A stretch of DNA of 64,000 nt, taken from the NCBI RefSeq assembly GCF_014132355.1, contig NZ_BLZO01000068.1:1-64000 (forward strand). The letters are read 5' to 3'. Shown in pieces: positions 6,829-47,575 of this stretch. The translations under genes and the position numbers were made by a program. This DNA is from Okeania sp. KiyG1 (GTDB lineage: Bacteria > Cyanobacteriota > Cyanobacteriia > Cyanobacteriales > Microcoleaceae). Below the pieces are notes generated by a model. That model was not told the origin of the DNA. It ran no database searches and saw nothing but the letters and a program-made list of their open reading frames with translations. Position 1 is the stretch's first letter, and every line of letters starts with the position of its first letter.

Positions 6829-7633
6829 ATGAAAGTTTACAATTCACTTTTTTTCTACTCAAAAATATAGTTCTTGGATAGATGCTATAGCAATTTTTGT
6901 TTGGGGTTTTGTATTATTGCATTATTGGACGACAAGCAAGTTATACATATTAATTCATCCTCGTTATTTTGGTTTAACAGTGGGAGCTGGAATTGCTTTA
7001 CTTTTATTAGGTGGATTGAAAGTTTTGGAATTATGGAGTATTCGCAAAAGTCAAAGATTTAAGAGACAATCAAAACAAGCATTAACCAGTATTGAAAATC
7101 AGCATATTAATCTTTTTCCTCCTGGTTGGAGTAGTAGTTTATTATTAATATCAGCTCTATCGGCATTGATAATTACCCCTCAAGTTTTTGCTAGTCAAAC
7201 AGCATTACAAAGAGGTTTAACAGAATCTTTGCCAGTGACTAGAACTCAACCTCAAGAATTTCGTAGCGCTACTAAACCAGAAGAGCGATCGCTGATTGAA
7301 TGGATTAGAATTTTAAATGTTTATCCAGAACCAGATGCTTATAACGATCAAAAAGTTGAAGTAACTGGGTTTGTAATTTATCCTCCTGGATTATCTGAGC
7401 AATATTTTTGGATATCTAGATTTATTTTGACTTGTTGTGCTGCTGATGCTTATCCAGTGGGATTACCTGTTAAATTACCAGAAGGTAGAAGTCGGAGTAA
7501 ATATCCTCAAGATGGTTGGTTGAAAGTTGAAGGTAAAGCGATTACTGATGAGCTAAATGGTCAACGTAAATTAACAATTTCGCCATCTAAAATTGAACCA
7601 ATTCCTAAGCCGAAAAATCCTTATGATTATTAA
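6829..7633 (+). CDS. TIGR03943-family membrane protein, partner of the permease (start region frame-broken)
   Basis: The conserved part (ILNVYPEPDAYNDQKVEVTGFV, then FWISRFILTCCAADAYPVGLPV) is the TIGR03943/YcgQ signature, with a CC-x-AD motif. Two membrane segments lie at the N-terminus (WIDAIAIFVWGFVLLHYW and YFGLTVGAGIALLLLGGLK) and a third near residue 100. The only good ATG, at 6829 (MKVYNSLFF), is one frame off the body of the protein. Removing one T from the T7 run at 6848-6854 joins them as MKVYNSLFSTQKYSSWIDA. Starting instead at the in-frame TTG at 6917 would delete most of the first membrane helix. I therefore prefer 6829 with a one-base homopolymer error or mutation. Confidence 0.75.
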
Positions 7634-29481: not shown

Positions 29482-29636
29482 ATATTTACTACAGAATAGT
29501 TCAACAATTAATAATTAAAATTAATAATTAAAATTAATAATTAACAATTACCCTTCCTTTAAAAGAGGAGGCTTTCAACCACAATTTTTCGGTAAAGCAT
29601 AAAATTTTGTATTTTTTGACAAATAGTATTATCTTG

Positions 29637-29834
29637 TATCATGTCCGGATAATTAGTTATAAAAAAACTTTCTCCTTCAACTCCAGTTGTTCTTCTTTCT
29701 TCCCCTCCACGGTCGGGGTTAGGGGTGGGTTGACTCCTGACTCCTGACTTCCCCTCCACGGTCGGGGTTAGGGGTGGGTTGACTCCTGACTCCTCCGTAG
29801 TTATTTATTTATCACTGTCTAACCGGACATAATA
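29637..29834. mobile_element. 198-bp miniature element, TATCATGTCCGG family
   Basis: Ends TATCATGTCCGGATAATTAG and CTAACCGGACATAATA are inverted repeats. It is closely similar to 51053-51207, including CTTTCTCCTTCAACTCCAG and CCGTAGTTATTTATTTATC near the ends. A 50-bp internal block (CTTCCCCTCCACGGTCGGGG with its flank) is present twice here and once in the other copy. Confidence 0.75.
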
Positions 29835-30110
29835 TTAATGTTTGATAAAATTATACCATGTATGAAAAAATAATTTTACAAATAAACTTGCTAGTAAATA
29901 ACTAATAATCCGGCGTTGCACAGTGACGAATGATTTGAAATTTTTGATGAAAAGGATTTTGGATTTGAGAATTACTAGAATTATTAATTAATGGTTTTTT
30001 AGTCAAAATCGAACACCTATTTTTTGCAGTATCATTCGATAATGTGCAACCCCAATAATCCACCTAAAACTAATCCACCTAAAATCTAAAACCTACCACC
30101 TACCACCTAA

Positions 30111-30338
30111 TATCATGTCCGGTTGAATACTTATAAATAAACGACGGAGGAGTCAGGAGTCAGTAGGGGCGATTCGCGTTTGCGGAGCATGACCTTAGGA
30201 AATCGCCCGTACAGGAGTCAGGAGGGAAGAAAGAAGAAGAAAGAAGCAATAAGAAAGAATAAAGAGTAGGAAAAGGAGAAAGAATAAAGAGTAGGAAAAG
30301 GAGAAAGTTTTTTTATCACTAATTATCCGGACATGATA
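30111..30338. mobile_element. 228-bp miniature element, TATCATGTCCGG family
   Basis: Ends TATCATGTCCGGTTGAATAC and TTATCCGGACATGATA are near-perfect inverted repeats. The interior carries the nested palindrome GTAGGGGCGATT / AAATCGCCCGTAC and a purine-rich repeat. Confidence 0.75.
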
Positions 30339-30542
30339 TAACACCTAAAAAGTTATTTGTAGCAAACATTTATCAATTTAGTATAAGACACAAAGTGGCC
30401 GATCGTTGACTATCCCCATGCAATTGATTCTGTCTCCAGTATAGCTGTCTCCTGACTCCTTCTTCAAAACAGAATACAATCAATTATCTAATATAATTTT
30501 TTTTATAGCTTAAAAAATCGGAAATATTTGATTAATAAATGA

Positions 30543-32260
30543 TTAGAAAGCTCTGTATCTCAGATAAAAGTATATACCATCCTCCTGCAATGAATCTCCA
30601 TTTGTTTCTATATCTACAAAAGGTATTCCCCAATCTAATTGGGCCGAAAAACGAGTTCCTACTTGAATTCTTAAACCCACACCTACAGAAGATAGAGTTT
30701 CCTCTACCAGCTCAACATCATTACTATTCCAAACAGTACCAAAATCAACAAAAGGAGTTACTTGTAAAACAGCATCCCACTCTCGTACCCGCAGAATAGG
30801 AAACCTAAATTCACTAGAAATAAACAAACCATTATCACCAATTAAAGCATCTTGACGATATCCTCTCACACTTAATCCACCTCCCAAGCTAAACTGTTCT
30901 TGGGCAAATAAACTGCTAGGTGTTAATTGAATATCTGACCTAATTAAAAAAACTGTATCTGGTGCAAATAAACGTAAATATTGTGCTTGTCCCCGCCAAG
31001 AAAAATATCTCTCATCTGGAATTTCCTCATTAAAAGAATCTAAATTATTAGCATTAATATCGCTAACATCAAAATCATTTATTCCTAGAGAAAATTCTGA
31101 CCGTGCCACAAACACATCATTAGTACTCCTAGAAGTATATTCCTGAAAAAAACGAACTGAAGAAATGCTCACCTCCCCATCACTTATATCAGGAAAAGGC
31201 TCGCCATTAAGAGTAGTTTTTGATTCATCTACAGAACCCGTAAAACCCAGAGCAATTTCTTTACTAAGAGTTTGATAAATAGGTTGGCGAAAACTTATCT
31301 CATAAGTACGAGAATTTGTTTCGATATCTATTTCATCAGCATCTTCATCAACATCAAAAAATTCTTCAAGAATTTCACTACTGGTGCGACGATGACGTAA
31401 ACTAATAGTTCCATTTTTAGAATTAATGGGGATAGTATAACTAAAGTCATCAAGAGTATTGCTACCATCTGTATTGTAATAAGTCGCATTCAGGCGATCG
31501 CCAAACCCAGTCAAATTACTATGAGAAAGTTGAACTTGGCGACGAACAGTACCCACACTAGGAGAACGTAAATTATCAGCAGAAAGTTGAGCCAAAAAAA
31601 GCAGGTGCTTCTTCCACCTCAACCTCTAACCTACTCAAACCTGGACGAGAACCTGCCGTTAAATTAGCAGATAATCTCTCAACTAAGGGGTCAAGCTGAA
31701 GTAACTGCAAAGATTGAAATAAATCATCTTGATTTAAAGGCGTTTTAATACCAGATTCAATTCGACTGCGAATATACCCAGAATTAAGTCTTTTTAACCC
31801 CGAAATTTCAATTGCTTCAACTATCCCTTCTATCACTTCTATTGTAACTGTACCATCTTGCAAAGTTTGTGGGGGGAATAAATGCCCCAGAAGTAACATA
31901 TCCTCGATCAAAATATAGCTGAGTTACTGCTGTTTGTGCTTCTAGTAATTCCGCAAAAGAAATAGGACGACCTGTAAAAGGTTCCAGAATTTCCGCCAAT
32001 TCTGTAGAACTAAAAACTGTACTACCAACAACTACAAATTGGGTAACAGTAATTTTACCTGGAATTTGCAGAGGAGGTGACTGGGGAGATGGAGATGGTA
32101 CTGGTGGAGGTTGGAGCAAATCATTTGGTGGAGGTAATGGTTCTCCTTCCGGTATGGGTTGAGGGTTAGGGTTAACTGGCCTAGGAGTTGTTTGAGCAGT
32201 GGCAGGTTCAGAAGTAGAAAAATAAGATAAAGAAATAAGAATTATTATCCAGACAATCAT
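30543..32260 (-). CDS. TpsB/ShlB-type two-partner secretion outer-membrane transporter, frame broken twice
   Basis: Outer-membrane beta-barrel that exports TpsA exoproteins. The order is: signal region (MIVWIIILISLSYFSTSEPATA), Pro-rich linker, POTRA domains (ITVTQFVVVGSTVFSSTELAEIL; VEVEEAPAF), then a 16-strand barrel including the TpsB motif SLGGGLSVRGYRQDA and the C-terminal aromatic strand GIYFYLRYRAF. Three overlapping frames encode it. One base fewer in the G6 run at 31871-31876 restores GAFIPPQTLQDGT, and one base fewer in the A7 run at 31594-31600 restores APAFLAQLSADNLRS. Both breaks are homopolymers, so I annotate one gene of about 570 residues. It lies downstream of the two tpsA genes on the same strand. 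Confidence 0.85.
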
Positions 32261-33686
32261 AACTTTTTTTTGAAATTGAGGTCCTGCCTGAGCAAATAAT
32301 AAAATATGGTCATCGAAATAATAAAATTTTTTTTATAGTGTCCTTTCATGGCTTAGTGTTAAACCCAACATAAAATACCCAAAATAATTTTATAAGGGTG
32401 TGGAATGTCTCATCTATCACTGGGCTATTTTATCCATAGTTTTACTTCTTTTTTTTCTATTTCCTAATATTCAAAGGAGAAAATAATGAGAAATTTGTCA
32501 ACTTGGAGACGGTCGGTCGATAGAAAAAGTAGAGCGTTGCATAAATGCGCTTGGGATTTTAATAGTTTTGTGGAAGTGGAAGTGAAAGTAGAAGTGGAAG
32601 TGGAATGGGCATCTTGCCCGTTCCTGATATAGCAATGAGCGGTGGTATATTTACAAATTGCAGGAGAGGCCAAATAGCTAAAGGTTTTACATTATCAGTA
32701 ATTTATTCTCTCTGTTGCCTGTTGCCTGTTGCCTGCGCACAACGCTATATTTTGGGGCAGGCAGGATGGGACAGGCAGGATGGGACAGGGACAGGTAGGA
32801 TACCTGCCCCCACTTACCACTTATATTTATCCCGCCCCCTCAGCAATGCAAAAAGTAAAGTATGTGGAGACACAATTTATTATCTATTCAAGCATTTCTG
32901 TAAGTTTGGGTCGGGAGATAAGGAGATGGGGAGATCGAGAAATATTTGGTAATGGTTGAAGATGAAACATTTTATAGGGCGAATGCCATTCGCCCCTACA
33001 TATTCCCTATTATACCATTTTGAAAAAAGAATGTTACGAATTAATTTGCGCCATAAAAAGACTTTCAGATAAAGTCTGTTTCACGAAAAAGGTAATTTTC
33101 AACATCAAAAATTGTATTAAATCTATCCCCAAGTGCATTCTAAATTCTAAATTCGCGCATTAAAATAAATACCCTAACTATTTGTAGCAAACATTTATCA
33201 ATTTGGTATTATACCAATTCTTAAAAGTAATTCTATACTTAGGTAACACTTCAGTTATTAAGTTATTGACACTAACTTGATCATTTTTTTGCTAATTAGA
33301 GCCCTATTTAATGTCAACTATTCCTATTTTTATATTATGTCTAGCTAATTAGTTGTTAAAAAACTTATCCTCTTGCTTAAACAGTAAATTTTTATATTTT
33401 CCCTACTCCCCTACTCCCCACTCCCCCGCTCCCCTACTATTTTAATAATAAGTATTCAATCGGACATGATATTACTTCTCCCTGTACGGAAGTTGCATGG
33501 AACGTCCCTACCCACTCCCCTACTCAAGAAAATGTAGAAAAATTTTTGAGAAATTGTATTACCGAATTATTAATAATTAAATAATTCGCGCCTTGAAGCC
33601 TCCCCTTTTAAGGGGAAAAAAGAAATAATATCTCCTTATATTTAATTCCGTAACGGTTAAAACCCGAGGTAATTATCAATTATCCA
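32261..33686. repeat. intergenic between tpsA1 and tpsB: repeats, no gene seen
   Basis: Hexamer-like GAAGTG runs (32572-32605) are followed by GGGCATCTTGCCCG palindromes, GGACAGGCAGGAT repeats, a GGGCGAATGCCATTCGCCCC palindrome (about 32979), an element at 33012-33209 and an AGGGGA/TCCCCTTTT-type element (33555-33705). Open frames at 32605-32959 run through these repeats and have no protein-like features. Confidence 0.5.
33012..33209. mobile_element. 198-bp miniature element, ATACCATTTTG ends
   Basis: Begins ATACCATTTTGAAAAAAGAA and ends AAACATTTATCAATTTGGTAT; the outer ATACCA and TGGTAT are inverted. A second copy (62593-62815) has another element inserted in it. Confidence 0.6.
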
Positions 33687-36600
33687 TTATCCATTATCAA
33701 TTAATGAACTATTCCCTATTCCAGTTCCAAATGCCACAGGAGAAAATAGATAACAACTAGGATGAATTAACTGTAAACCACCTGTATTGACAGCAGCTTC
33801 AGTAGTAGTGAGTATAATAGTACCACCTTCAGTCATGGCCCAACCCTGAGCTTGGCGAATTTCTGGCAAGTTCTCGACTTCTGACCGATGGTAGATTACC
33901 ACAGGTTGTTTATCATCTCTCATCACAGCAGTTGTATACCTGGGTGTTTCTGTTTCCCATTCCACTGTTCCTCTCAATACTGTCAATGGTTTAGTTGGGT
34001 CTGGTGGTAGACCCCCTCGACCTGTAATCACAAATGAACTACCTTCTTTTTCAACCTGAGTAGACGCACATATATTTTTGGCCACTAATGACTCAGCATC
34101 TATAACTGTTGCAGATAATATGACCATTCCTTGAGTGGGGTCTATTTGAGTATTAAGTTCAACCGTACCATCAATGCCCAAAGTTGAGGTGGCAGTAATT
34201 TGACTACTATTATCAAAAAATACCCCTTCTGCGTTGATAGAAATATTACCACCTCGACCCTCTATAGCATTAGCACTAATCTTGTTATTATCTGCTGCAA
34301 TAATAAATTGTGCATCAATATTAATATCTCCACCTGTGGCAGACTTTGTAGCATTGGTAGTAATTGCACTATTATTTTCTAGGTTAATATTTGAAGCTTG
34401 TATAGTAATGTTACCCTGGTCTCCAGCTCTAGTTTCTGCACTCAGAGTACCATTATTGAGTTCAATAGATGGAGCATTAATATTGAGGGAACCCGCCACC
34501 CCGCTACCAGAACTACTAACAGTAACGATCGCTCGGTCTTCTACTTTTAAATTCGGTGTATTAATATTGATAGAACCAGCATTGCCATTATTCAGAGTAC
34601 GAGCAGTAATAGTGCTGGAGTCACCAGAAATTGAATTTACTCCAGATAGAGTAATATTTTCTGTGGCACTGACTGTTAAATTTCCTGCCTTGCCGTCTCC
34701 AAAGGTGCTAGCACTGATTTCACCTCCATCCAGAATTGTCAAGCGTTCTGTTTCTATGAATGCGTTGCCTCCATCTCCACTGCCTACTCCTAGAGACAAA
34801 TTTCTTAAGTCTTCTACACTAGCAAGAATACTACTAGCAAGTCCACCATCTTCAGCACGACCAATGAGTTCAATTTCTGTTGCTCGTACTGTTAAGTCTC
34901 CACTACTACCCACACCAGATGTACCTGCTCTGACTTGAGCACCATTTCTTAAGCTCAAGCGTTCGGTGTCAACAGTTAAACTTCCGCCATTGCCTGTAGC
35001 TTCATCAAAGACTGAAGTAAACAAGCTACTAGGAAGTTGACCGCTAGGAATAGTACCACTCATGTCAATTTCTGTTGCTCGTACTGTTAAATCTCCACTT
35101 TGACCTTGAGCAAATGTTCCAGTACCTATCAACCCTCCACCTTTTAACCGTAAACTTTGGGTATTAATTGCTAAATTTCCACCATTTCCTGTAGCTCCAG
35201 GTAAAACAGTTGTCAACAAACCACTAGGAACTTGACCGTTTATACTTTGAACTAGAGATGGTATTTCTGGCAATAAATTTTCACTGGTAGCATTACCTGA
35301 TAGCTCTACTTCCTTTGCATTGACCGTAATGTTTCCTCCTTGACCAGAACTGAAAACTGCCGCTTGAATTATTGCCCCGTCTCGTAATATCAGACGTTCC
35401 GTATCTATCGTTAAATTGCCACCATCCCCCGTAGACCCTAATGCAACTTGACTATTTATACCACTGAGAAACTGACCATCTGGTGAAATACCTACTGCTT
35501 CTATTTCAGTAGCATTAACTACAATATTTCCTCCCTTACCTTCACTCGAAGTAGATGCTAAAATTGAGCCTCCATTTGTCAGCATGAGATTTTGAGTATT
35601 AATTATTAAATTTCCTCCATCTCCATTCCTAATTATTGCTGCACTCTCATTACTATCAGCAGTAATGGAACTGTTATTTACCTCAATATCGGTAGCATTA
35701 ATTTCTATATTTCCACCTTTGCCTTCCCCTTCAGTACGGGCGCTAATGGTGGCTCCACCTTCAAGAGTCAGACGGTCTGTTGTAATCAATATTTGGCCAC
35801 CATCACCACTGCCAACACCGGATGGAGTTATAGGTGATAAGTCTTCAACTGCAGCTTGAATAATGCTAGGTAAGATAAAAAGATCGTTGGCAAAACTACC
35901 TTGTAAGTTAATTTCTTTTGCTGTTATAGTTACATCTCCACTATCTCCTACACCAGATGTACCAGCTCTTACTTGTCCTCCGTTTTGTAGAGTTAGAGAC
36001 TGAGTATCGATAGTAATATTTCCACCTTTACCTGTAGCACCTAATAAAACTGAAGTAAAAAAGCTACTTGGCAGAAAAGCATCTTCAGAAGAACCAATGA
36101 CTTCTATTTCCCTTGCCTTAACTGCCAGTTCTCCACTATCTCCGACACCAAATGTACCAGTTCCTATTTGCGCTCCGTTGCGTAATACTATGCGTCTGCT
36201 ATTAACTGTTAATTTGCCACTATTTCCTGTAGCTTCCGGTATAACTAGAGCTAAAATTGCACTGGGAAATTGACCATTTAGAGCTTCTAACAGGAGTTGT
36301 TGCTGAGGAACAGTACTTTGAGATACAATAGTACCAGAGGCTTCTATTTCAGTGGCATTTACAGTTAAATTTCCTCCTTGTCCTGCACCAAAAACGTTGG
36401 CTGTCAGTTGTCCCCCATTGAAAAGCTTGAGGTTTTGAGTATTAATTGTTAGGTCTCCACTTCTACCTGTTGCTCCTGGTAATACATCTGTAAATATGCC
36501 ACTGAGATTTTGACCATCTGCTGATATACCCATAACCTCTATTTCATTGGCGTTTACTGTCAGCTCTCCGCTTGTACCTGTGCCAAATGTAGCTGTACTT

Positions 36601-37661
36601 ATCTGTCCTCCACTTGTGAGTATTAAACGTGGAGTATTAGCTGTAATGCTTGCACCACTGCCATTTGCAGCAAATCCTACATCAGCGTCCACAAAGCTAT
36701 CTGTTACTTCCAATAATTCGGAAGATATCAATGAAATGCTACCTCCTGGTTCATTGCCTAAAGTATTGGCTACAATAGTTGAACCCCCTGTTATGGCCAC
36801 TTGTCTACCTTGGAGTTGAATATCACCACTACCTTCTCCACTTACATCCACAACAGCACCATTCTTGATTTGTATATTCTCAAAGTTTTCTACTTCTGAA
36901 TAATTAAGAGTATAATTATTGGTGTTTTCTAATCTGACTAAACTATTATTTCCAACGCTGCCTATTTCTATTCTTCCTTGTTCGGTTGTCAGTTTTCCAC
37001 TGTCAATAATTACCTCCCTTCCTATTAACCCTAAAGTTTCTCCAGATGGTATTTGTAGACCAACTTCTTCTGCGGTTGATTGACTGACAATATTTCCTTG
37101 ACACAGCGGACAGGATGCCCGCTCTACAAAAATTTGATTGAAAAATAGAGCTGAAGGTTCTACTGATAATAAGTTACTATTTTGAGGATTAGTAACACTA
37201 AATAAACCATTTTCTCCTAACCTAATTTCGTTGGCTGTTGTCGCAATAAATGACCCCCTAATATCTAGACTAGAATTAGGTCCGAATAATATACCATTAG
37301 GATTTATTAAAAATAAATTTGCTTCTCCTAATACTCCTAATTTTCCTAATATATTGCTGGCATTATTACCTGTAATTCTTGTTAATATATTTTCAATTCC
37401 TGCTGGGTTTGTGAAGTAGACACTTCGATTTTCTCCAACATTAAATTCTTGGAAACTATGAAACAAATTTGAACCTCTAATTGCTCCACCTTCTATCTGT
37501 TCTTTGAATCTATCTATAGAATTAACAACTGAATTTTCTGCCCCTAGTGTTTGGTCGGGAATTATTTGAGCATTTCCTGGATTTTGGCAAAATAAACTAG
37601 ATAAAATTAGCCATATTCCTGATGTTGAACTGGAGAAAATTATTAGAGATTTTAATTTCAT
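33687..37661 (-). CDS. giant TpsA exoprotein (filamentous haemagglutinin N-terminal domain), first paralogue
   Basis: A secreted 1324-residue protein. Signal peptide to about residue 32 (ending GNAQI), then the TPS secretion domain: DQTLGAENSVVNSIDRF, GAIRGSNLFHSFQEFNVGE, and LFLINPNGILFGPNSSLDIRGSF with the NPNGI motif. A long right-handed beta-helix follows, built of about 20-residue repeats (GNGGNLTIDTERLSLRNGAQV, then GDLTVRATEIE). The C-terminus (GRGGLPPDPTKPLTVLRGTVEW, GLQLIHPSCYLFS) is shared with the paralogue at 38858. Near residue 180 an extra IFVERASCPLCQG corresponds to a GC-rich dispersed repeat carried in frame. The dense codon repetition creates long antisense frames that are not genes. 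It should be exported by the adjacent TpsB. Confidence 0.92.
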   Translation of the reverse strand: MKLKSLIIFSSSTSGIWLILSSLFCQNPGNAQIIPDQTLGAENSVVNSIDRFKEQIEGGAIRGSNLFHSFQEFNVGENRSVYFTNPAGIENILTRITGNNASNILGKLGVLGEANLFLINPNGILFGPNSSLDIRGSFIATTANEIRLGENGLFSVTNPQNSNLLSVEPSALFFNQIFVERASCPLCQGNIVSQSTAEEVGLQIPSGETLGLIGREVIIDSGKLTTEQGRIEIGSVGNNSLVRLENTNNYTLNYSEVENFENIQIKNGAVVDVSGEGSGDIQLQGRQVAITGGSTIVANTLGNEPGGSISLISSELLEVTDSFVDADVGFAANGSGASITANTPRLILTSGGQISTATFGTGTSGELTVNANEIEVMGISADGQNLSGIFTDVLPGATGRSGDLTINTQNLKLFNGGQLTANVFGAGQGGNLTVNATEIEASGTIVSQSTVPQQQLLLEALNGQFPSAILALVIPEATGNSGKLTVNSRRIVLRNGAQIGTGTFGVGDSGELAVKAREIEVIGSSEDAFLPSSFFTSVLLGATGKGGNITIDTQSLTLQNGGQVRAGTSGVGDSGDVTITAKEINLQGSFANDLFILPSIIQAAVEDLSPITPSGVGSGDGGQILITTDRLTLEGGATISARTEGEGKGGNIEINATDIEVNNSSITADSNESAAIIRNGDGGNLIINTQNLMLTNGGSILASTSSEGKGGNIVVNATEIEAVGISPDGQFLSGINSQVALGSTGDGGNLTIDTERLILRDGAIIQAAVFSSGQGGNITVNAKEVELSGNATSENLLPEIPSLVQSINGQVPSGLLTTVLPGATGNGGNLAINTQSLRLKGGGLIGTGTFAQGQSGDLTVRATEIDMSGTIPSGQLPSSLFTSVFDEATGNGGSLTVDTERLSLRNGAQVRAGTSGVGSSGDLTVRATEIELIGRAEDGGLASSILASVEDLRNLSLGVGSGDGGNAFIETERLTILDGGEISASTFGDGKAGNLTVSATENITLSGVNSISGDSSTITARTLNNGNAGSININTPNLKVEDRAIVTVSSSGSGVAGSLNINAPSIELNNGTLSAETRAGDQGNITIQASNINLENNSAITTNATKSATGGDINIDAQFIIAADNNKISANAIEGRGGNISINAEGVFFDNSSQITATSTLGIDGTVELNTQIDPTQGMVILSATVIDAESLVAKNICASTQVEKEGSSFVITGRGGLPPDPTKPLTVLRGTVEWETETPRYTTAVMRDDKQPVVIYHRSEVENLPEIRQAQGWAMTEGGTIILTTTEAAVNTGGLQLIHPSCYLFSPVAFGTGIGNSSLIDNG

Positions 37662-37833
37662 AATTGTTATTAAACATTAATATATTATATATTTATATAA
37701 AATGCGGTTATATCATGTGCCCCCTACGGGGGAGCTACGCTAACAGACGGGTCAATTATAAATAAAATTTACCGAATAATTAATAATTATTAATTATTAA
37801 TTAAATAATTCAGGTTTAAAGCCTCTCCTTTAA

Positions 37834-37998
37834 TATCATGTCCGGTAGCATCAGTCTTGTATAGCAAAGGTAAGGAAGAAGGAAGAAGGAAGAAGGAAGA
37901 GGGAAGAGGTCCGAAGGCTACCCTCGCAAGAAAAAAACCATTATTTCCTGTAGATATTCACCCTTGGGTTTACACAAACGATATAAACGGACATGATA
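37834..37998. mobile_element. 165-bp miniature element, TATCATGTCCGG family
   Basis: Ends TATCATGTCCGGTAGCATC and AAACGGACATGATA. The interior contains GGAAGAA heptamers. Confidence 0.65.
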
Positions 37999-38268
37999 TA
38001 AAGGAGAAACAAGCGGTCGTTTTGCTTCGCATAACTAGGTTAACGGCCGTCGCCGACATGGCAAGCGTAGCATTCCGCACCGAAAAGCGCAGCTTCCCGA
38101 AGGGTGGGATGGCGAGGTCTCGGAGCCATATCTATGACAAAATCATCCTGCAATTATGCAATGCCAAATATTGTAGGGACGTTGCATGGAACGTCTAAGG
38201 GCGAATGCCATTCGCCCCTACTATGGTCTACCGTGCAGGAAAACCGCTGTAATATCAAGTCCGAATAA

Positions 38269-38580
38269 TTAGGGCTTGCTGATTAAATATCAAAGCACTG
38301 ACAGATATTAGTTTCAGCCTTTTTTGGTCTAAAAAACTGCGCCTGTTTCGGTCGCTCAAGCTCATGCATGGAGAGTATTTTGGGATGATTATGGCAGTTG
38401 GGTCTTGGGACAAATATACCCGACTACCCCCTCTATAATTTCCATTTCTCCTGTCTTCCCCTCCCCTCCTGGGAGGGGCTAGGGGTGGGTTGGGAAGGGG
38501 AGGGGCGAGGGGTGGGTTGTCTCCAGTATAGCTGTCTCCTACCCCTACCACTCATACTTTATGAGTGCAAACCCTAATTA
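38269..38580. mobile_element. 312-bp miniature element, TTAGGGCTTGCTGA family
   Basis: Begins ATTAGGGCTTGCTGATTAAA and ends GTGCAAACCCTAATTA. The interior GCGCCTGTTTCGGTCGCTCA and GGGATGATTATGGCAGTTGG is almost identical to 42756-43116. GC-rich palindromic repeats are inserted in the right half. Confidence 0.75.
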
Positions 38581-38805
38581 TAGCGCTACACGCTAGGGAA
38601 TAGGGAACAGCGGTGCGACCCAGTGGGGCGCGACAGACGCAAGCAGTCAGATCCCGCGTCGGCGACAGACAAGGGAATGCTGACCAAGGGAGGGAACAGG
38701 GAATAGCAAACTGTAAAAGGGTTTTAGCATTGAAAAATGTCCGCGCCCAATTCTTGTAGTGCTATGGCGATCAAAAACTTTCTTCTTCTCTTCCTTCTTT
38801 TTTCA

Positions 38806-38851
<46 letters not shown>

Positions 38852-38857
38852 CCGTCG

Positions 38858-41830
38858 TTATTCTCCTAATACATAACAACCTGGATGAATTAATTGTAGA
38901 CCACCTGTATTAACAGTGGGAGGATTAGCCGTCAGGATAATATTACCGGATCTATTTATGACCCAACCTTGAGCTTGAAGAATTTCTGGTAATTTTTTAC
39001 TCTGTTTTCTCTGGTAAACTGATACAGTTTGTTGCTTGATATCTGATGATGTCGTTTTTTTCGCGTCAGTTTCCCAACCTACTACTCCTCTCAATACTGT
39101 TAAAGGTTGAGTAGGGTTTGTTGGTAGACCCCCTCGACCTGTAATCACAAAGCTACTGCCTGCTATTCGATCTTGATTTGGTAAACATAGATTTTGTGCT
39201 ACCACAGACTCCGCATCCACAACTTCAGGAGATAATATCACCACCCCTTGAGTCGGGTCTATTTGAGTGTTTACATTAATTGTACCATCAATTCCCAATG
39301 CTGAACTAGCAGTCAAATTGCTACTGTTGTCAAAAAATAACCCCTCACCTGTAATATCAATATTACCACCTTGACCTTCAACAGCATTAGCATTAATTTG
39401 GCTACCATCTCTAGCGATAATAAACGTAGTATCAATAGTAATATTACCTCCCGTAGCATTCCCCTCAGCACTGGTAGTAATCGAACTGTTGTTTTCTAAA
39501 CTAATATTTGAGGAGCTGATCGTAATATTACCTTGGTCTCCAGCTTTAGTTTCTGCCGCCAGAGTACCATTGTTAAGTTCAATTGATGGAGCCTTAATAT
39601 TCAGGGAACCTGCTACACCTGTACCGAAGCTACTAACAGTAACTATACCCCGGTCTTCCACCCTCAGTAGAGGTGTATTGAGTGTAACTGAACCCGCATC
39701 ACTTTCATCTCTGGCACGGGAAGCGATCGCGCTTTCTGGACTATCACCGATTTCTATTTCTCTATTATCTCTTTCTCTATTAGCGATCGTCATTCCTCGT
39801 TCTTCTCTTTCATTGAAGTTGGAGTTGATGCCAGAGATCAAGATACCTTCTCTAGTATTTATTTCTATTGTACCTGCATTACCACTGCCGAAACTAGAGG
39901 TCAGAACTTGACCGCCTGTTGTAAGATTTAAGGTGTTGATATTCAGAGAAATATTACCTCCGTCAAAATCGCTGTTACTTCTTGCTGTAATTAATGCTCC
40001 ATTATCAATATTCAGATTTGGAGTAGTAATTTCTATACTACCTCCCTCTCTAGTTGCACCTAATTCTGTACTAGCAGTAATAGTGCTAGAATCACCAGAA
40101 ATAGAACTAAACCCAGAGACAGTAATGTTATTATTGGCTCGAATGGAAATACTTCCTGCTCTGCCATCCCCCTCAGTTCGAGCCTCAATTGTAGCCCCAT
40201 CTCGGATGGTTAAACTATCAGTCTCAATAGATATTTCTCCACCATTACCACTGGATCTGAATTCCTCTTCACCCCGTACTGTGGCAGATATGGTGCTAGG
40301 AAACATACCATCCTCAGAACGGCCAATCACTTCTATTTCGTTAGCCTTAATATTAAGTTCTCCAGCATCACCTGCACCAAGAGTAAAAACGCCTACTGAT
40401 GCTCCATCTTGTATACTCAAACGCTGAGTTTCAATAGAGAGGTCTCCTCCATCACCAGTTGATTCTGCTTGAACTGTAACACCTAAACCACTACTAAATC
40501 CTTCTCCTAGAATACCTATGAGTTCAATTTCCTTTGCTCGTACTATTAAGCTTCCTGCTTTACCTTCCGAAGAAGTTGATGAATCTATTTGAGATCCATC
40601 TCGTAAGCTGAGGCGTTGAGTCTCAATAGTTAAAGTCCCTCCTTCTCCTGTTGCTATTTCTCCTGAGTCAGATTCTCGGACACCAGTACCTATAAAATTA
40701 TTTATTGCTCCATCATTACCTGTGGCTTCAATTTCCACCGATCTAACTGTTAAGTTTCCAGCATTACCTTCACCAAAAGTTTCTGTTGCAATTAAAGAGC
40801 CATCCCTGAGAATCAAACGCTGAGTTTCAATATCAATGTTACCCCCACGTCCTGTCACTCCTTCGTTGACATCACTAAAAATATCACTACTAACTACTTC
40901 CAAGACTTCCGAAGCATTAATTTCTATATTTCCTCCTGGTTCCGGTCCATTGGTACTTCCTGTAATTCGAGATAATTCTGTAATAGTAATACGTCTGCCT
41001 TGAATTGAAATATCACCACCACCCTCATTTCCTTGAGTATCAATAACAGCAGAAGCTATATTGATATCTTGAAAATTATCAACTTCTGAATAATCCAAAT
41101 CATAACCTTTGTCTGTTGGATTTAACTTGACAACAGAGTTATTCCCTATACTCCCTAGTTCTACCCTTCCTTGTGGGACTACGATTATTCCCCCATCTAT
41201 TTCTACATTTCCTCCTACTAAAGCTAGGGTTTGCTCCCCTGGCAATTCTAAGCCCACTTCTGTGGATTGATTAATAATTGTTCCTGTTCCTCTAGCTTGA
41301 GTCTCCAGTTGATTTGAGAATAACGCTGAGGGTTCTACTGATAATAAATTACTTGTATGAGGTGCTGTGGCACTGAATCGTCCATTTTCTCCCAGTCTAA
41401 TTTCGTTAGCAGTTGTGGCGATAAATGAACCCCGAATATCTAAACTGGCTTTAGGCCCAAAAAAAATGCCCTGGGGATTCACCAAAAATAAATTTGCCCC
41501 GCCATCTACTCCCAATTTGCCTAAAATACTACTGGGGTTGTTACCTGTAATTCTAGTCAGAATATTTTCTATGCCGTTAGGGTTAGCAAAATAAACGCTT
41601 TTACCTTCTCTGATATTAAATTCCTTAAAACTATGGAATAAATTTGAGCCACGAATAGCTCCTCCTTCAATTTGGTCTTTCAGTCGATCGATGGAATTAA
41701 CAACAGAACTTTCTTCACCAAGGGTGTTATCTGGAACTATCTGAGCATTTGCTTGAGTTTTCCAGTTACTGAAAAAATTCCACAAGACAAAAGTTAGTGA
41801 GACTACGAAGAGAGAGGAATAGGATTTCAC
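38858..41830 (-). CDS. giant TpsA exoprotein, second paralogue
   Basis: A 990-residue paralogue of the 33687-37661 protein. Signal peptide to about residue 30 (KTQANAQI), then the secretion domain (DNTLGEESSVVNSIDRL, LFLVNPQGIFFGPKASLDIRG). The NPNGI motif reads NPQGI, a mild variant. The beta-helix repeats (GDGGDLSIETQRLSIQDGA, AGELNIKANEIEVIG) run to the shared C-terminus GRGGLPTNPTQPLTVLRG and GLQLIHPGCYVLGE. It is about 330 residues shorter than the first paralogue, mainly from fewer helix repeats. Same strand and direction as tpsA1 and tpsB. Antisense open frames are artefacts of the repeats. Confidence 0.92.
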   Translation of the reverse strand: MKSYSSLFVVSLTFVLWNFFSNWKTQANAQIVPDNTLGEESSVVNSIDRLKDQIEGGAIRGSNLFHSFKEFNIREGKSVYFANPNGIENILTRITGNNPSSILGKLGVDGGANLFLVNPQGIFFGPKASLDIRGSFIATTANEIRLGENGRFSATAPHTSNLLSVEPSALFSNQLETQARGTGTIINQSTEVGLELPGEQTLALVGGNVEIDGGIIVVPQGRVELGSIGNNSVVKLNPTDKGYDLDYSEVDNFQDINIASAVIDTQGNEGGGDISIQGRRITITELSRITGSTNGPEPGGNIEINASEVLEVVSSDIFSDVNEGVTGRGGNIDIETQRLILRDGSLIATETFGEGNAGNLTVRSVEIEATGNDGAINNFIGTGVRESDSGEIATGEGGTLTIETQRLSLRDGSQIDSSTSSEGKAGSLIVRAKEIELIGILGEGFSSGLGVTVQAESTGDGGDLSIETQRLSIQDGASVGVFTLGAGDAGELNIKANEIEVIGRSEDGMFPSTISATVRGEEEFRSSGNGGEISIETDSLTIRDGATIEARTEGDGRAGSISIRANNNITVSGFSSISGDSSTITASTELGATREGGSIEITTPNLNIDNGALITARSNSDFDGGNISLNINTLNLTTGGQVLTSSFGSGNAGTIEINTREGILISGINSNFNEREERGMTIANRERDNREIEIGDSPESAIASRARDESDAGSVTLNTPLLRVEDRGIVTVSSFGTGVAGSLNIKAPSIELNNGTLAAETKAGDQGNITISSSNISLENNSSITTSAEGNATGGNITIDTTFIIARDGSQINANAVEGQGGNIDITGEGLFFDNSSNLTASSALGIDGTINVNTQIDPTQGVVILSPEVVDAESVVAQNLCLPNQDRIAGSSFVITGRGGLPTNPTQPLTVLRGVVGWETDAKKTTSSDIKQQTVSVYQRKQSKKLPEILQAQGWVINRSGNIILTANPPTVNTGGLQLIHPGCYVLGE

Positions 41831-42238: not shown

Positions 42239-42518
42239 ATTAGGGCTTGCTGATTAAATCTCAAAGTACTGGTAAATAAAGGTATTAGCCTTTTGATCGT
42301 CGAAAAAACTGTGCCTGTTTCAATTCACTTACCCTCAAAAAGTGAGTATGCGTGGGGTGAGTATGGCAGAAAAATCTCCCTAACAATTATTCCTTCTACT
42401 TTCGAGCGTCTTCCCACCCTTCCCACACGAACCAACTCCCCACATTCCCCTCCTGGGAGGGGTTAGGGGTGGGGACCCACCCCCCCCACGCTTCGCTTTT
42501 TTCAGCAAACCCTAATTA
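42239..42518. mobile_element. 280-bp miniature element, TTAGGGCTTGCTGA family
   Basis: Begins TTAGGGCTTGCTGATTAAAT and ends TTCAGCAAACCCTAATT; the first 15 bases are almost perfect inverted repeats of the end. The interior is more diverged than in the copies at 38269 and 42756. Confidence 0.75.
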
Positions 42519-42755
42519 CCTCGGGTTTTAACCGTTACGGAATTGAATATAAGGAAATATTATTTCTTCTCTTGGTCTGATGGATATGGCGCAGGTTTCG
42601 GAGCCATCCCACCCTACGGGAAGCTCCGAAGATAGAACTCCGTTCCGAGATACGCGTTTCGCGTCAGCGTTGCGTTGCGCCAGCTTTGCGAAGCAAAAGC
42701 AAACGACCGCTTTTTTCCCCTTAAAAGGGGAGGCTTCAAGGCGCAAATTATTTAA
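42519..42755. repeat. CCTCGGGTTTTAACCG / CCCCTTAAAAGGGG-type dispersed element
   Basis: Runs from ACCTCGGGTTTTAACCGTTACGG to CCCTTAAAAGGGGAGGCTTCAAG, filling the gap between two TTAGGG-family elements. Parts recur inverted at 33560-33690 and 62330-62470. The interior holds GCTCCGAAGATAGAACTCCG and GCAAACGACCGC patches seen in other copies. Confidence 0.55.
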
Positions 42756-43116
42756 TTAGGGCTTGCTGATTAAATATCAAACCACTTACAGATATTGATT
42801 TGCTGCCTTTTTTGATCGAAAAAAGTGCGCCTGTTTCGGTCGCTCAAGCTCATGCATGCTAGTATTTTGGGATGATTATGGCAGTTGGGTCTTGGGACAA
42901 TTTTTACGACTACCTCCTCTATAATTCCCCGTTCCTTCTGTCTTCCCCTCCCCTCCAGGGAGGGGTTAGGGTGGGTTGGTCGGGGTTAGGGGTGGGTTGT
43001 CTCCTGTCTTCCCCTCCCCTCCAGGGAGGGGTTAGGGTGGGTTGGTCGGGGGAGGGGCGAGGGGTGGGTTATCTCCTACCCCTACTACTTATACTTTCCA
43101 TACGCAAACCCTAATT
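42756..43116. mobile_element. 361-bp miniature element, TTAGGGCTTGCTGA family
   Basis: Begins TTAGGGCTTGCTGATTAAAT and ends ACGCAAACCCTAATTA. A GC-rich block (CTTCCCCTCCCCTCCAGGG and its flank) is directly duplicated inside. An 80-codon open frame over this block is not a gene. Confidence 0.75.
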
Positions 43117-43632
43117 ATTAATTATTAATTATTAATTATTCGGTAAGTCTTAGCTATATTTGATGACCATCTCCCTACCTCCCTATTGTTCAAGATGATA
43201 CATAGCAAACTTTTTGAAATTTGGTATTAGATTTAGCGATCGCAACCTCTATCAGTAAAATGTTGTATTTTCTAATCTTCTCCAGCCAGAGCGCTCAAAG
43301 ATGAATATATATTGTGGTAAAATTTTAATTAATTCCGGATCGATTGTATATAGTATTGTAATTAATAAATAAGTTCAAGCAATTCGTAGGGATGGCCAGT
43401 TTTTATCCTCTTACATGTTGTAAATACCTAGTTAATATGATTGAGTATGTAAAATTTTTTTAAATACTCACTATATCAGGGATTCAAACAATTATTTAGT
43501 GGGATATGATAGACACAAGGGTTAGCTATGAGTTAAACTATAGATAGGATATTTAGTTGAATTCTGTTTAACCTAGTATACAACAGTATATACACTTAGA
43601 TTAAATTAGAGAAGTTACTTAGGAGAAGGACA
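43117..43632. other. AT-rich leader upstream of the double-glycine peptide gene
   Basis: AATTATT heptamers at the left edge are followed by unique, very AT-rich DNA with no other gene. The last 100 bases contain TATA-rich words (TAGTATACAACAGTATATAC) that could hold the promoter. The length and uniqueness contrast with the repeats on both sides. Confidence 0.4.
43621..43625 (+). promoter_or_regulatory. strong ribosome binding site of the 52-residue peptide gene
   Basis: AGGAG lies 7 bases before the ATG at 43633. It is one of the few canonical Shine-Dalgarno sites in the window and supports this short frame as a real gene. Confidence 0.75.
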
Positions 43633-43791
43633 ATGACACACAAACAACAAAAACCAAACCCAAAACAAGAAAGTAAATTGAAAAAGCCTATTGCTGACAA
43701 GCAGCCAACATTAGAAAAGCTAACTGATCAGGATTTAGACTCAGTAGCTGGTGGTCGTCGTTTTCGTATGCCTTATGCTCGTTGGCGTTAA
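43633..43791 (+). CDS. putative RiPP precursor: double-glycine leader with Arg/aromatic-rich core
   Basis: A 52-residue peptide. Residues 1-41 form a hydrophilic leader ending LEKLTDQDLDSVAGG, the pattern that peptidase-containing ABC transporters cut after GG (compare LSDxELExVAGG leaders of lanthipeptide and microcin precursors). The predicted core is RRFRMPYARWR: five Arg in eleven residues, plus F, Y and W, with no Cys, Ser or Thr, so it cannot form lanthionines or azol(in)es. The spacing of Y-A-R and the terminal W-R leave room for aromatic-arginine crosslinking or arginine modification, which is speculation. No modifying enzyme, transporter or immunity gene lies nearby. The gene is too short for usual length cut-offs. 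A free cationic signal or antimicrobial peptide is the alternative. Confidence 0.75.
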   Translation: MTHKQQKPNPKQESKLKKPIADKQPTLEKLTDQDLDSVAGGRRFRMPYARWR

Positions 43792-44080
43792 TACATGACA
43801 ATCATCCATGTGTACTAATTAATTAATGACGGTAGTAGTGCTATCTATCACAGACATTTAGTATTAACTGCAGGTATTCCAAAAAGAATAAAAAATTGAT
43901 ATTCCATCTCATTCTACCTAAAAATTTCCCATATTTAAAGGTAGCGATTACTAACTAGAATATCTAGACCTAATGTAATCAGCTATCTTTATAATAATTC
44001 CAGGTTTTGATATTAACTTCTACAGCTAGAGTTAAAAATTTTTCTCTAGCCTATTTTCTCTGTAAAATTTTGCGGTTCTT
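43792..44080. other. 3' region of the peptide gene, no further gene
   Basis: AT-rich and unique, with one hairpin (44025-44050) that may end the peptide transcript. Confidence 0.4.
44025..44050 (+). terminator. possible terminator hairpin after the peptide gene
   Basis: GCTAGAG (44025-44031) pairs with CTCTAGC (44044-44050); the loop TTAAAAATTTTT can extend the stem. The following CTATTTTCTC is T-rich but not a clean T-run, so this is only a possible terminator. Confidence 0.35.
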
Positions 44081-44272
44081 AACAATAGTGTGCTCTACAA
44101 TAAGGCTGCTTGGTTAGCGGTGTCAGCGCTAGTCGCTCATAGGATAAACCACGGCAGTTGTTTAAGTTGGCGGGAACCCAAGACTTTACTAACTTTTCTG
44201 TGCAGAGTGCTTTCAGAGATGCATCAATAATGTCCTATTGTCTGATGAGAGCAGGGTCAGGAGGATATCAAT
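44081..44272 (+). ncRNA. solo structured RNA element, HEARO/IscB omega-RNA-like, no protein
   Basis: AACAATAGTGTGCT, AATAAGGCTGCT, then TAGCGGTGTCAG at the start and GGAGGATATCAA at the end are shared with 51811-52022, while the middle differs but keeps paired arms (AAGTTGG with a later complement). Strong conservation of short blocks with variable stems is typical of structured RNA. I believe the blocks match the HEARO RNA found upstream of iscB, whose ORF begins near the GGAGGATGTCAA end, but this is from memory. Here the following bases read SIHISNNK, perhaps a trace of an IscB start, and no iscB follows. Confidence 0.5.
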
Positions 44273-44474
44273 ACACATCTCCAATAATAAAAGAAAGGCG
44301 TTGCATATTTGCGCATTAGAAGGGGTATGAGTAGTTTAGAGGGCGTTATATAAAATCCGGTTATCAGTTATCGCACTCTCTACTTCCATTCAATGCACAC
44401 ATAAAAAGCCAGAATATACCCAGATAATTCCTACTCTCATCCTTCCTGACTTGGTCCTGCTGACTCCTGAGTTA

Positions 44475-44684
44475 TATCATGTCCGAACGCAATCGTTTGT
44501 GTATAAAGTTGGGGAAATATCTAGCGCCATATAAGGTTTTTCCTTCTCTTGTAGGGGCGATTTCCGTTCCGGAATTTTCCTAATTACGCGTTTGCGGAGC
44601 ATGACCTAGGAAATCGCCCCTACTTCTTCCTTCTTCCTTCTTCCTTACCTTCTCTATACAATATCGATGCTACCGGACATGATA
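44475..44684. mobile_element. 210-bp miniature element, TATCATGTCCGG family
   Basis: Ends TATCATGTCCGAACGC and CTACCGGACATGATA. A nested palindrome GTAGGGGCGATTTCC / GAAATCGCCCCTAC lies inside (about 44550-44624). A stray half-end (AATTATCCGGATACTATA) follows near 44700. Confidence 0.65.
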
Positions 44685-44763
44685 TTATACGATAACTAAT
44701 TATCCGGATACTATATTACATATTTGCCCATTGGAATTCTTGTTTGAGAAAAAGAGGAACTAA

Positions 44764-45198
44764 TATCATGTTCGGACGGGTCAGTTATAAATAAAATTTC
44801 AGAACTGACAGTACCGAATAAATACTGAAATTATCTTGATTTTTCTCCTTTCTTCCCCTCCTGGGAGGGGCGAGGGGTGGGTTGACTCCTGACTTCCCTC
44901 CCTCCTGGGAGCAGGGCTAATTCATTGTCGCGCCTAGAATATTTACAACTGTATATTTTTGGTTAACTCACCTAGCAAGATGCACAAAATCTCAAAATTT
45001 CAAAGGATACAATTTTTCGATCGCGTGACGATGAATTGACAAATGCTCCCCATCCCCTACTCCCCACTCCCCACTCCCCTACTTCTTTTTCTCTCGTGAC
45101 AATAAATAGACCCTGCCTCCTGGGAGGGGAGGGGCGAGGGGTGGGTTGACTCCTGAGGACTCGCTAAGTTATTTATAAGTATTCAACCGAACATGATA
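44764..45198. mobile_element. 435-bp composite of the TATCATGTCCGG family
   Basis: Outer ends TATCATGTTCGGACGGG and AACCGAACATGATA are inverted repeats. Two GC-rich palindromic repeats (CTGGGAGGGGCGAGGGG) and CCCCACT heptamers lie inside. No gene is seen between here and the cyclase stop at 45260. Confidence 0.55.
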
Positions 45199-45259
45199 TA
45201 AAAGATGGCTCAACCTAACTTCAATTCTGATTTCTAGTCTTCTACCCCAACAAACAATT

Positions 45260-47575
45260 CTATGGTTGTAAAGAAGATTGATATAAACTATCAAGCTGTT
45301 CTACAACAGATCGAGGCTTGAAAGTAAAACGGATGTAAAAAACCTTTGATGCTTCTTCTACCCTTAAGACTTTTCCATAAATATGCTCGCTCATAAACGA
45401 TTGATTGCTAGGATTTAATAAATTAAGTTGGATATTACTATGAACTAATGGTAGTGAATCTTCTGAAGCATATCTGTTAATTTCTATCTCCGCTCCTCTT
45501 TGAGAAAGCTTAACTAACTTTCCCTTAAATACAGTATTACTAATATGTTTACCTTCTACAATTAAATAAAATATAGGAATTTTTTGTTCTATCGGTAAGA
45601 GAATTTCCTCCTCTTTCGGCAAAAATAGATTATATTTATCTCTAATTCCTCCCACCTCATAAATATTAATTGGATGACTAATACCTTTAGGTCTAATTTC
45701 CTTCGTACTATCTATCCTTAATTGTGAAGTACCGATCACTGCCCTAGTAGCATCAGAAATCAGAATTTGATTTCCAGTAGCATAGCTTTCTATGCGAAAA
45801 GCCAAATTAACTTCCCAACCAATAGCAGTATATTCAGTATGTTCTTCAGAGCCAATATTTCCGACTACAGCATCCCCTGTATTAATACCAATACCCATTT
45901 CCAAAGCTGGCAACCCCAGAACTTTGATTTTTTGATTAATAGATTTCATTTCTAGCTGCATTGCCACTGCACAAGCCACAGCTCTATGTGCATCATCTTC
46001 CCTAGCTGTAGGAGCGCCGAACAAAACCATTATCCCATCACCAAGTAGTTTGTCAATACTACCACCATATTTTGTAATTATTTTTAATATATCTTTGAGA
46101 TAAATATTAATAATTTCTACAACACTTTCTGAGGATAGTTGCTCAGAAATGGCAGTGAAGCCTCTTAGATCGGAAGTTAATACAGTTATACATTGCCTCT
46201 TACCTCCTATTTTTAAACCCTCTTTACTTTCCAATAAGTTCTTGACTATTTCATTGGAGTGATAACGAGCAAAAGTTTTTCTAATCAAACTAGCAGTGCC
46301 AGCAACATAACCTGTAATGGCAAATGAAGAAACTACTATTGCCAATAAAGGAGGCACTACAGGAAGCCACCATCCCCAAATAAACATAATATAAGTGCTA
46401 AGAAAAATGATCGCAGATTCTAGGGTGAGATGCTTCAATAATGTTAGTGACAAGAATTTTTGGGTTTGATTTTGCCACTGCCATGTAACTGTGGCACTAA
46501 CTCCAGACCAGATAAAAATCCATAACCATTCCTGGGGTTCAGACCAAGTTTTGATTAAGGGACGTTCATTTAGGGCCGCACTAATAATTTGACTAATAAA
46601 ATTTGCTTGCAGTTCTACTCCTGCCATTGGTATTGGTGGAGCTAGCAAATGACTACTGTAGGGTGTATAGAATAGATCGTTGAAGCTTTCTCCTACTGCT
46701 CCAATCAGAATTATGCGATCGCGTCCCCAGTCTGGAGGGACTCGGTCGTCAAGAATATCTGTCAGAGAAACTTTTTCAAAATGACTACTTGGCCCTCTAT
46801 AGTTAATTAATAACTGATATCCACGAGCATCAGCTCTTACATAAGCACCATCATTTTTTTGAAAAGGAGGGAAAACTTGACTTCCCACCCGCCAGCGATC
46901 AGTTCCCTCTACTATTTCTGCTCTAATATTTTCCTTTTCTAAATAAAGCAATGCTAAATGCAGGGCAAAACTATAAATAATTTCCCCATCTTTATTATCT
47001 AAATAAAACAAGCCTCGCCGAGATCTGTTATCTGCATCGACAGGGGTATCATTTGCTCCTACTTGTCCTTTTTCTTGTAAAGCAGGTGGTGCTGCTACTC
47101 CTTCTCCTCTATCATCCCCTACTACTTTTTGGATGCCAACTAAATTAGGAGTGTTTTGAAATACTTTAACCAGTTCTCGATAACCAGGCGGTACAGGTAA
47201 ATTTCGGTAAATATCTAAACCAATAGCCCTGGGTTCCATTGCTTTGAGTTTTTTGAGCAGCTTGGCAAGAGTTGCGTCAGGAATTGTTCCCCGACCTACT
47301 CTGCGTATATCCGCTTCATCAATACCAACAATTACGATACGTTTGTCCCTTGGAGGTAAAGGTCTATTTCTGATATAAAAGTCGTATGTACCCCACTCCC
47401 AGAGTTGCAATATTCCAGTTAGACGTAGTAATATCACTAATATAGTTACGCAGGGAGTAGTTATCCACACCCCGCGCCACTGCCAAATTAATGATTTAGC
47501 TCTTGATCCACAAGAATCATAATGAGATTTCACTAAAGGTTTCTCAATATGTTTAACTTTTAGGTAATCTAACAA
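45260..47575 (-). CDS. CHASE2 - class III nucleotidyl cyclase - PilZ membrane protein
   Basis: A 771-residue sensor. One membrane helix (about 36-58), extracytoplasmic CHASE2 domain (about 65-335; IVIVGIDEADIRRVGRG, AVGESFNDLFYTPY), three membrane helices (349-366, 388-405, 406-428), class III cyclase domain (about 460-620) and a C-terminal PilZ-like domain (about 664-760). Metal-binding aspartates D469 (SDLRGF) and D513 (LLGDGI), substrate lysine K509, N590 and R594 are present. The usual Asp of the IGDxVN motif, which helps select adenine, is Trp here (IGWEVN, W587), so ATP specificity is uncertain. The PilZ part lacks an obvious RxxxR before it. It starts 6 bases after the DUF928 stop and is surely co-transcribed with it. 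Confidence 0.9.
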   Translation of the reverse strand: MLDYLKVKHIEKPLVKSHYDSCGSRAKSLIWQWRGVWITTPCVTILVILLRLTGILQLWEWGTYDFYIRNRPLPPRDKRIVIVGIDEADIRRVGRGTIPDATLAKLLKKLKAMEPRAIGLDIYRNLPVPPGYRELVKVFQNTPNLVGIQKVVGDDRGEGVAAPPALQEKGQVGANDTPVDADNRSRRGLFYLDNKDGEIIYSFALHLALLYLEKENIRAEIVEGTDRWRVGSQVFPPFQKNDGAYVRADARGYQLLINYRGPSSHFEKVSLTDILDDRVPPDWGRDRIILIGAVGESFNDLFYTPYSSHLLAPPIPMAGVELQANFISQIISAALNERPLIKTWSEPQEWLWIFIWSGVSATVTWQWQNQTQKFLSLTLLKHLTLESAIIFLSTYIMFIWGWWLPVVPPLLAIVVSSFAITGYVAGTASLIRKTFARYHSNEIVKNLLESKEGLKIGGKRQCITVLTSDLRGFTAISEQLSSESVVEIINIYLKDILKIITKYGGSIDKLLGDGIMVLFGAPTAREDDAHRAVACAVAMQLEMKSINQKIKVLGLPALEMGIGINTGDAVVGNIGSEEHTEYTAIGWEVNLAFRIESYATGNQILISDATRAVIGTSQLRIDSTKEIRPKGISHPINIYEVGGIRDKYNLFLPKEEEILLPIEQKIPIFYLIVEGKHISNTVFKGKLVKLSQRGAEIEINRYASEDSLPLVHSNIQLNLLNPSNQSFMSEHIYGKVLRVEEASKVFYIRFTFKPRSVVEQLDSLYQSSLQP

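Follow-up and report, generated by a model that had tools for sequence, protein, structure and literature searches.

The frame under study occupies positions 43633–43791 (plus strand) of the window, i.e. the whole 64,000-nucleotide stretch of Okeania sp. KiyG1 DNA that was analysed. It encodes 52 residues, the leader MTHKQQKPNPKQESKLKKPIADKQPTLEKLTDQDLDSVAGG and the core RRFRMPYARWR, which matches exactly the 52-codon translation reported in the preliminary description of this DNA. The strong ribosome site, the canonical double-glycine leader and the core composition claimed there were likewise recovered: AGGAG (43621–43625) stands 7 nt 5′ of the ATG, the leader of 41 codons ends in Gly-Gly, and the core holds five Arg and one each of Phe, Tyr and Trp, but no Cys, Ser or Thr. 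The leader end reads ...LEKLTDQDLDSVAGG, with the hydrophobic residues L, L, L and V at positions −15, −12, −7 and −4 as counted from the second Gly. In C39-peptidase substrates, the anchor pattern consists of GG (or GA/GS) where cleavage occurs and of hydrophobic residues at −4, −7, −12 (and −15). The N-terminal half of the leader is rich in Lys, Arg and Pro, and a Pfam search of the 52-residue peptide gave no match. As described previously, the surrounding island is AT-rich (29–36% GC at 43200–44099 vs 37.4% for the whole window) and free of repeats, since all repeats of at least 18 nt within 42500–45500 fall outside 43100–44300. The features of the locus are as follows:

43430..43632, plus strand: conserved stretch ahead of the gene, probably containing its promoter and 5′ UTR; mean pairwise identity 83–88% over six genomes, against 70–72% further upstream
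43577..43590, plus strand: invariant box TATACAACAGTATA, 42 nt 5′ of the start codon; eight exact copies in the six same-genus genomes, six of them one per peptide gene
43621..43625, plus strand: Shine-Dalgarno sequence AGGAG, unchanged in all six genomes
43633..43755, plus strand: leader; L27, L30, L35, V38, G40 and G41 invariant in all six genomes; 91.2% DNA identity, no gaps
43756..43788, plus strand: core RRFRMPYARWR; length differences among relatives all multiples of three, Arg codons all CGT
43937..43990, plus strand: 3′ stem-loop past the stop codon; 94.1% of cells paired, against 28–45% with the partner slid (six distinct rows of seven; G004 is left out, an insertion splitting its 3′ hairpin region)
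44025..44050, plus strand: second hairpin GCTAGAG...CTCTAGC followed by a T-rich stretch, a possible terminator; arms intact in five of six alignment rows, G004 having an insertion before the hairpin

The leader alone is not beyond chance. A loose GG-leader pattern fits one short ORF in the window, and 60 Markov-random simulations of 64 kb contained on average 0.42 such ORFs (maximum 3). A stricter pattern, with no hit in the window and none in 100 simulations, is uninformative. The case for a gene is carried by conservation, because homologues are conserved in all five other Okeania genomes among the 99 related genomes searched (E 4.8e-14 to 4.4e-19). Each of the six Okeania genomes has exactly one copy of the gene, always at the same position next to a CHASE2 cyclase gene, and the peptide frame is the only ATG-started ORF of at least 28 residues common to all six islands. 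On these grounds (conservation in five of five relatives, fixed slot, sole shared ORF) a chance ORF was rejected. Outside Okeania, the best match in the 99 genomes had an E value of 0.03, and profile searches of 386 genomes from the phylum and 389 from the order gave nothing below E 0.006 outside the genus. Matches at E 0.006–0.5 were rejected as family members, as those that were read share only a generic GG leader or an Arg run; the phylum match PQLEQLTDRDVDLTRGG (E 0.0095), which has no Arg run, was likewise not assigned to the family.

The preliminary description had proposed to look for leader homologues with variable cores. Such homologues were found in Okeania only, though hundreds of other cyanobacteria were searched. 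The relatives' cores read RRRRRR, RRRRRRR, RRQIRRR, RRRRR and GSRRGRRGR. All six cores contain five to seven Arg and neither an acidic residue nor Cys, and aromatic residues are absent from five of the six. In-frame length differences are confined to the core, whereas no leader shows a gap or a stop. It had also been considered that the frame might be conserved no better than the flanking DNA. It is conserved better, albeit by a modest margin: mean pairwise identity is 91.2% for the ungapped leader compared with 82–88% for the nearest 200 bp on each side (88% and 83% in the nearest two upstream 100-bp blocks, 82–83% in the next 210 bp downstream) and 70–72% further out. All six Okeania genomes examined thus encode a real orphan GG peptide with a hypervariable, Arg-rich core.

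In the sister genera, the peptide gene was not recovered at four loci with CHASE2 orthologues of 78–79% identity. Two of these genomes (G022, G035) have kept a 66–70% match to the 3′ region without the peptide, and the other two (G009, G017) show no recognisable trace of the locus. G035 also has a short match to the leader segment, in which no GG motif is visible by eye; this locus contains an N and a duplicated stretch, and an assembly error is possible. Since the 3′ region survives without the peptide in two sister-genus genomes, either the locus is older than the genus or the peptide was lost in the sister genera. In G022 and G035 the 3′ stem-loop region persists in the same chromosomal slot (L103:7970–8107 and L134).

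The two remaining copies of the box TATACAACAGTATA (L187, L188) have no such peptide adjoining, and with six of eight copies at the peptide gene and two without a peptide the box was rejected as a regulon marker. A promoter scan was near chance (8 vs 5.9 expected, sd 2.4). The fold z score of the 3′ region is −2.7. In the stem-loop at 43937–43990 one pair is changed on both sides, but one slid control also gives one such pair, and covariation therefore does not decide the matter. A terminator scan confined to loops of 3–8 listed none, and an Rfam search found nothing. An arginine-sensing attenuator, in which the run of Arg codons would precede the hairpins, was rejected because there is no downstream gene on the plus strand, the next long gene being convergent. 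Degenerate G-rich repeats like GGGAGGGGCGAGGGGTGGGTTG flank the conserved island on both sides (window 42935–43085 and 44840–45162).

Of the changes that the six-genome tree places in the leader as a whole, 10 are synonymous and 21 nonsynonymous (omega 0.55, p 0.09), which is only suggestive of selection. Codons 24–41, which would face the exporter, have six synonymous and six nonsynonymous changes (omega about 0.32, p 0.045), whereas codons 1–23 look unconstrained (omega about 0.84, p 0.47). The weak significance of these tests is due to the closeness of the genomes. Within the core, all 33 Arg codons over the six genomes are CGT, without a single synonymous change, whereas three genes nearby use CGT for 16 of their 102 Arg codons. 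Therefore, the core looks like a CGT triplet-repeat tract that gains and loses triplets and diversifies by substitution too. Slippage alone could keep the run rich in arginine, and the lack of synonymous Arg changes argues against each arginine having long been under purifying selection. Even so, in each of the three cores that have departed from a pure repeat, five Arg are retained and acidic residues are still absent. Overall, there is weak evidence that the arginines are maintained by selection and not by slippage of triplets.

The gene neighbourhood is largely shared among the genomes. Downstream genes for a CHASE2/cyclase protein and a DUF928 protein are present in all six, and an upstream TPS gene (two-partner secretion, hemagglutinin-like) in five, G005 being different. 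The CHASE2 cyclase occupies the same slot in sister genera where the peptide was not found. At 26824–41830 of the window, a CHAT-TPR protein, a ShlB/FhaC-type transporter and two TPS-domain exoproteins are encoded in a row, which amounts to a two-partner secretion cluster adjoining the gene for the peptide; by their predicted domains, the left-hand neighbours are an adhesin-type setting. The description of the peptide as an orphan held up. A Pfam scan of 22 of the 26 window ORFs of at least 150 aa (the other four being 1787–2308, 6917–7633, 34234–34938 and 39933–40427) recognised no C39 exporter, HlyD adaptor, radical SAM enzyme or other RiPP enzyme, and the contig carrying the peptide gene has no C39 match in any of the six genomes, although in G001 this contig is only 17.7 kb long. 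A plasmid DNA search returned nothing.

Elsewhere in the genome, unlinked C39-peptidase ABC transporter genes are indeed present, as had been suspected: the C39 model PF03412 matches at four to five places in each of the six genomes. A 738-aa exporter occurs in all six and is 98–99% identical in the five relatives. In the copy from the peptide's own genome the Cys motif of C39 is present, and inspection by eye identified the His and Asp motifs as well; the two neighbourhoods that were read contain neither an HlyD-type adaptor nor a GG peptide. Other genera of the family, in which the peptide was not found, have the same exporter at 87–91% identity; it is therefore not dedicated to the peptide but at best a general exporter. 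Four of the six genomes encode a C39 type of 908 aa whose Cys motif is intact, a 1007-aa type is devoid of the Cys motif, and an NHLM-type exporter has it in the form that was read. From these data we infer that the 738-aa form is the leading candidate exporter for the peptide, with the 908-aa and NHLM types as alternatives. The NHLM-type gene appears split into two frames in the own genome (L085:7354–9518) and is whole in the relative G003 (L088).

Several known systems invite comparison. ComC and microcin V are double-glycine leader substrates of C39-peptidase ABC exporters (PCAT). The Okeania leader has the anchor pattern and GG of such substrates in all six genomes, for which a small secreted product would be expected, and exporters with the Cys motif (738-aa, 908-aa and NHLM types) are encoded in the same genomes. 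The heterocyst peptides PatS and PatX are short Arg-containing signals with the motif RGSGR. This motif is absent from all six Okeania cores, and PatS further differs from the Okeania peptide in that it is said, in a passage of PMC4997328, to have no GG motif. The same source, in the sections available, describes the GG peptides EbfG1-4 of Synechococcus elongatus, which serve biofilm formation and are efficiently secreted only with the C39 exporter PteB; for EbfG1 and EbfG2 it gives TTYNPPSYPYPSYPK and SGYSIPTYPK as the N-terminal peptides that are likely mature (PMC4997328). The Okeania core, in contrast, has 5–11 residues and is mostly arginine. In excerpts of Wang et al. 2011, the precursors of cyanobacterial bacteriocin clusters (NHLP, N11P and other GG precursors) show little core conservation (PMC3140520). 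The Okeania peptide resembles them as a GG precursor with a poorly conserved core, but those precursors were, in these excerpts, taken close to processing and export clusters, whereas the Okeania gene is solitary. Finally, HetC is a cyanobacterial C39 exporter involved in cell differentiation, and parts of PMC10986499 give it neither a known substrate nor a GG-leader gene nearby. Okeania presents the same picture, being filamentous and having a C39 exporter to which no substrate is linked.

Taking the evidence together, we see about an even chance that the gene encodes a linear, unmodified, polycationic peptide of 5–11 residues, which is cut by a C39 peptidase after Gly-Gly, exported, and acts outside the cytoplasm by its charge. 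The ribosomal precursor would be translated with its canonical double-glycine leader, and the leader would dock in the C39 groove of an ABC exporter encoded elsewhere, most probably the 738-aa form. Cleavage after GG would then release the Arg-rich tail as a peptide with five to seven Arg, which could act in the periplasm, the sheath or the medium. Its most likely targets would be anionic surfaces and polymers of the filament, the mat or neighbours, such as the sheath, the outer membrane or extracellular DNA. Core length would shift by gain and loss of CGT triplets and core sequence by substitution, while the leader would be held constant by the exporter. Cleavage, export, absence of modification, choice of exporter and action by charge are all predicted from sequence, and action by charge is favoured because the cores share positive charge and small size, not sequence. 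The presence of exactly one gene copy at a fixed position in all six genomes, the invariant anchors and GG, and a constraint that is strongest in codons 24–41 support this model, as do the linked analogue at L177 and the Arg runs after GG in Nostocaceae described below. Against it count the flanks, which are almost as conserved as the leader, and the C39 matches, which are unlinked and include a 738-aa exporter also present in genera without a detected peptide. Likewise, slippage may explain the all-CGT Arg run better than selection for charge does.

The preliminary description had left open either a simple cationic peptide or a modified one, and the relatives' cores favour the former. A modified RiPP, with Arg converted to Orn or an aromatic-Arg crosslink made by a radical SAM enzyme, and with an unlinked maturation enzyme, is highly improbable. 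An orphan precursor would fit such a pathway, and the leader does score with the XyeA triceptide (TIGR04495, 12.6 bits) and NHLP leader (TIGR03793, 12.8 bits) models; these scores are very weak, however, and fail the curated cut-offs of 33 and 50.9 bits by far. Since five of six cores lack aromatic residues, the suggested aromatic-arginine crosslink is not supported and cannot be a general maturation. The model for UPF0489, which we take to be a peptide-arginase-like family, matched none of the six genomes, yet its control matched nothing either. Improbable, too, is an intracellular RNA- or DNA-binding small protein, in which GG would be just a linker between a basic N-terminus and an Arg tail and nothing would be exported. 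The Lys/Arg/Pro-rich N-terminal half and the Arg-rich tail would suit this function, but then neither the invariance of the C39 signature −15/−12/−7/−4 and GG in all six genomes nor the stronger constraint on the signature segment than on the basic N-terminal part would be expected.

Two further readings share export and cleavage with the charge-based model. It is unlikely that the product is an antimicrobial, i.e. a bacteriocin or microcin that kills competitors via their membranes. The window core, with its Arg plus Trp/Phe/Tyr, resembles short Arg/Trp antimicrobial peptides, but five of the six cores have no aromatics and R5 to R7 are very short. GG leaders are common in bacteriocin precursors according to the available part of PMC3140520; here, however, no exporter is linked, no immunity gene was recognised, and the gene is present in all six genomes rather than patchy. 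A pheromone function, in which a receptor on other cells or along the filament would sense the core once it has been cleaved off at GG and exported, and in which the core variants would confer strain specificity, is also unlikely, if slightly less so. It would account for the conserved leader and variable core as well as for the single copy, fixed place and conserved upstream box. Streptococcal ComC/CSP is a pheromone with a likewise unlinked exporter, and the ComC-like anchor spacing of the Okeania leader speaks for this reading as well. HetC, as far as the consulted parts of PMC10986499 go, sets a precedent for a C39 exporter without a known substrate. On the other hand, no receptor was recognised as dedicated to the peptide, the neighbouring CHASE2 cyclase keeps its slot where no peptide was found, and RRRRR, RRRRRR and RRRRRRR would hardly serve as signals that are specific and distinct from one another.

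Weak matches to the Okeania peptide led to an unrelated GG family, represented in 98 of 192 genomes by a match to a two-row profile which itself contained Arg columns; we take these genomes to be Nostocaceae. As in Okeania, an Arg run directly follows GG. The family (L178, L179 and L197–L225) differs in its longer tail past the run, the start of its leader and its mostly AGA codons, and is not a member of the Okeania family. In the 25 loci parsed from the 30 best matches, the 12 positions that follow GG include three or more basic residues in 24 cases, AGA makes up 100 of 126 Arg codons, and the Arg codons are all of one kind in 11 of 25. Because of this last figure, repeat expansion is possible in the Nostocaceae family too. 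A Pfam scan of two of its GG peptides gave no match. In the two neighbourhoods read, a similar gene pair lies downstream of the GG peptides at L178:11236–11463 and L179:4486–4719, which in L178 Pfam assigns to an APH/choline-kinase-like and a HopA1 protein. According to the part of PMC9486802 at hand, kinase-like and HopA1 proteins are the enzyme types of class V lanthipeptide dehydration. This suggests that the Nostocaceae peptides are class V lanthipeptide-like precursors. Since that family is unrelated and uses different codons, the comparison also suggests more than one origin for Arg runs that directly follow GG.

A bolder proposal, which we regard as possible but doubtful, is that the peptide secreted by Okeania is free oligoarginine (R5 to R7 and variants), made by ribosomes from a CGT tract behind a C39 leader, as a natural, slippery equivalent of the synthetic cell-penetrating arginine peptides that is used between the cells of filament or mat, and that oligoarginine after GG is a recurrent, independently evolved cyanobacterial product type (CGT in Okeania, mostly AGA in Nostocaceae). 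Okeania, a genus of marine cyanobacteria, probably releases a very small, strongly positive peptide. Among the papers listed by literature searches, with most subscription journals outside reach, none showed a peptide secreted by bacteria that consists nearly entirely of arginine. If confirmed, the Okeania product would be a minimal polycation that is encoded by a gene and changes in sequence as triplets are gained and lost, and it would allow a straightforward test of whether a secreted peptide can function by charge alone. It would also be a possible substrate for C39 exporters that have no linked precursor, a question raised for HetC in the accessible sections of PMC10986499.

Two other loci with GG peptides came to light in these searches. 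At L177:8448–12190, two tandem GG peptides with the cores GRRWS and RSAWR lie between a piece of a C39-ABC exporter and a biotin-lipoyl (HlyD-like) gene. This arrangement may be viewed as a minimal linked cassette of exporter and short peptides, and by analogy as a linked counterpart of the Okeania peptide. From L169:807 onwards (the same gene as L180:1324–1620), a precursor that is presumably Nif11-like has a core that begins with GRRRRRRRLIKWKIKIEIGN, another Arg run right after GG.
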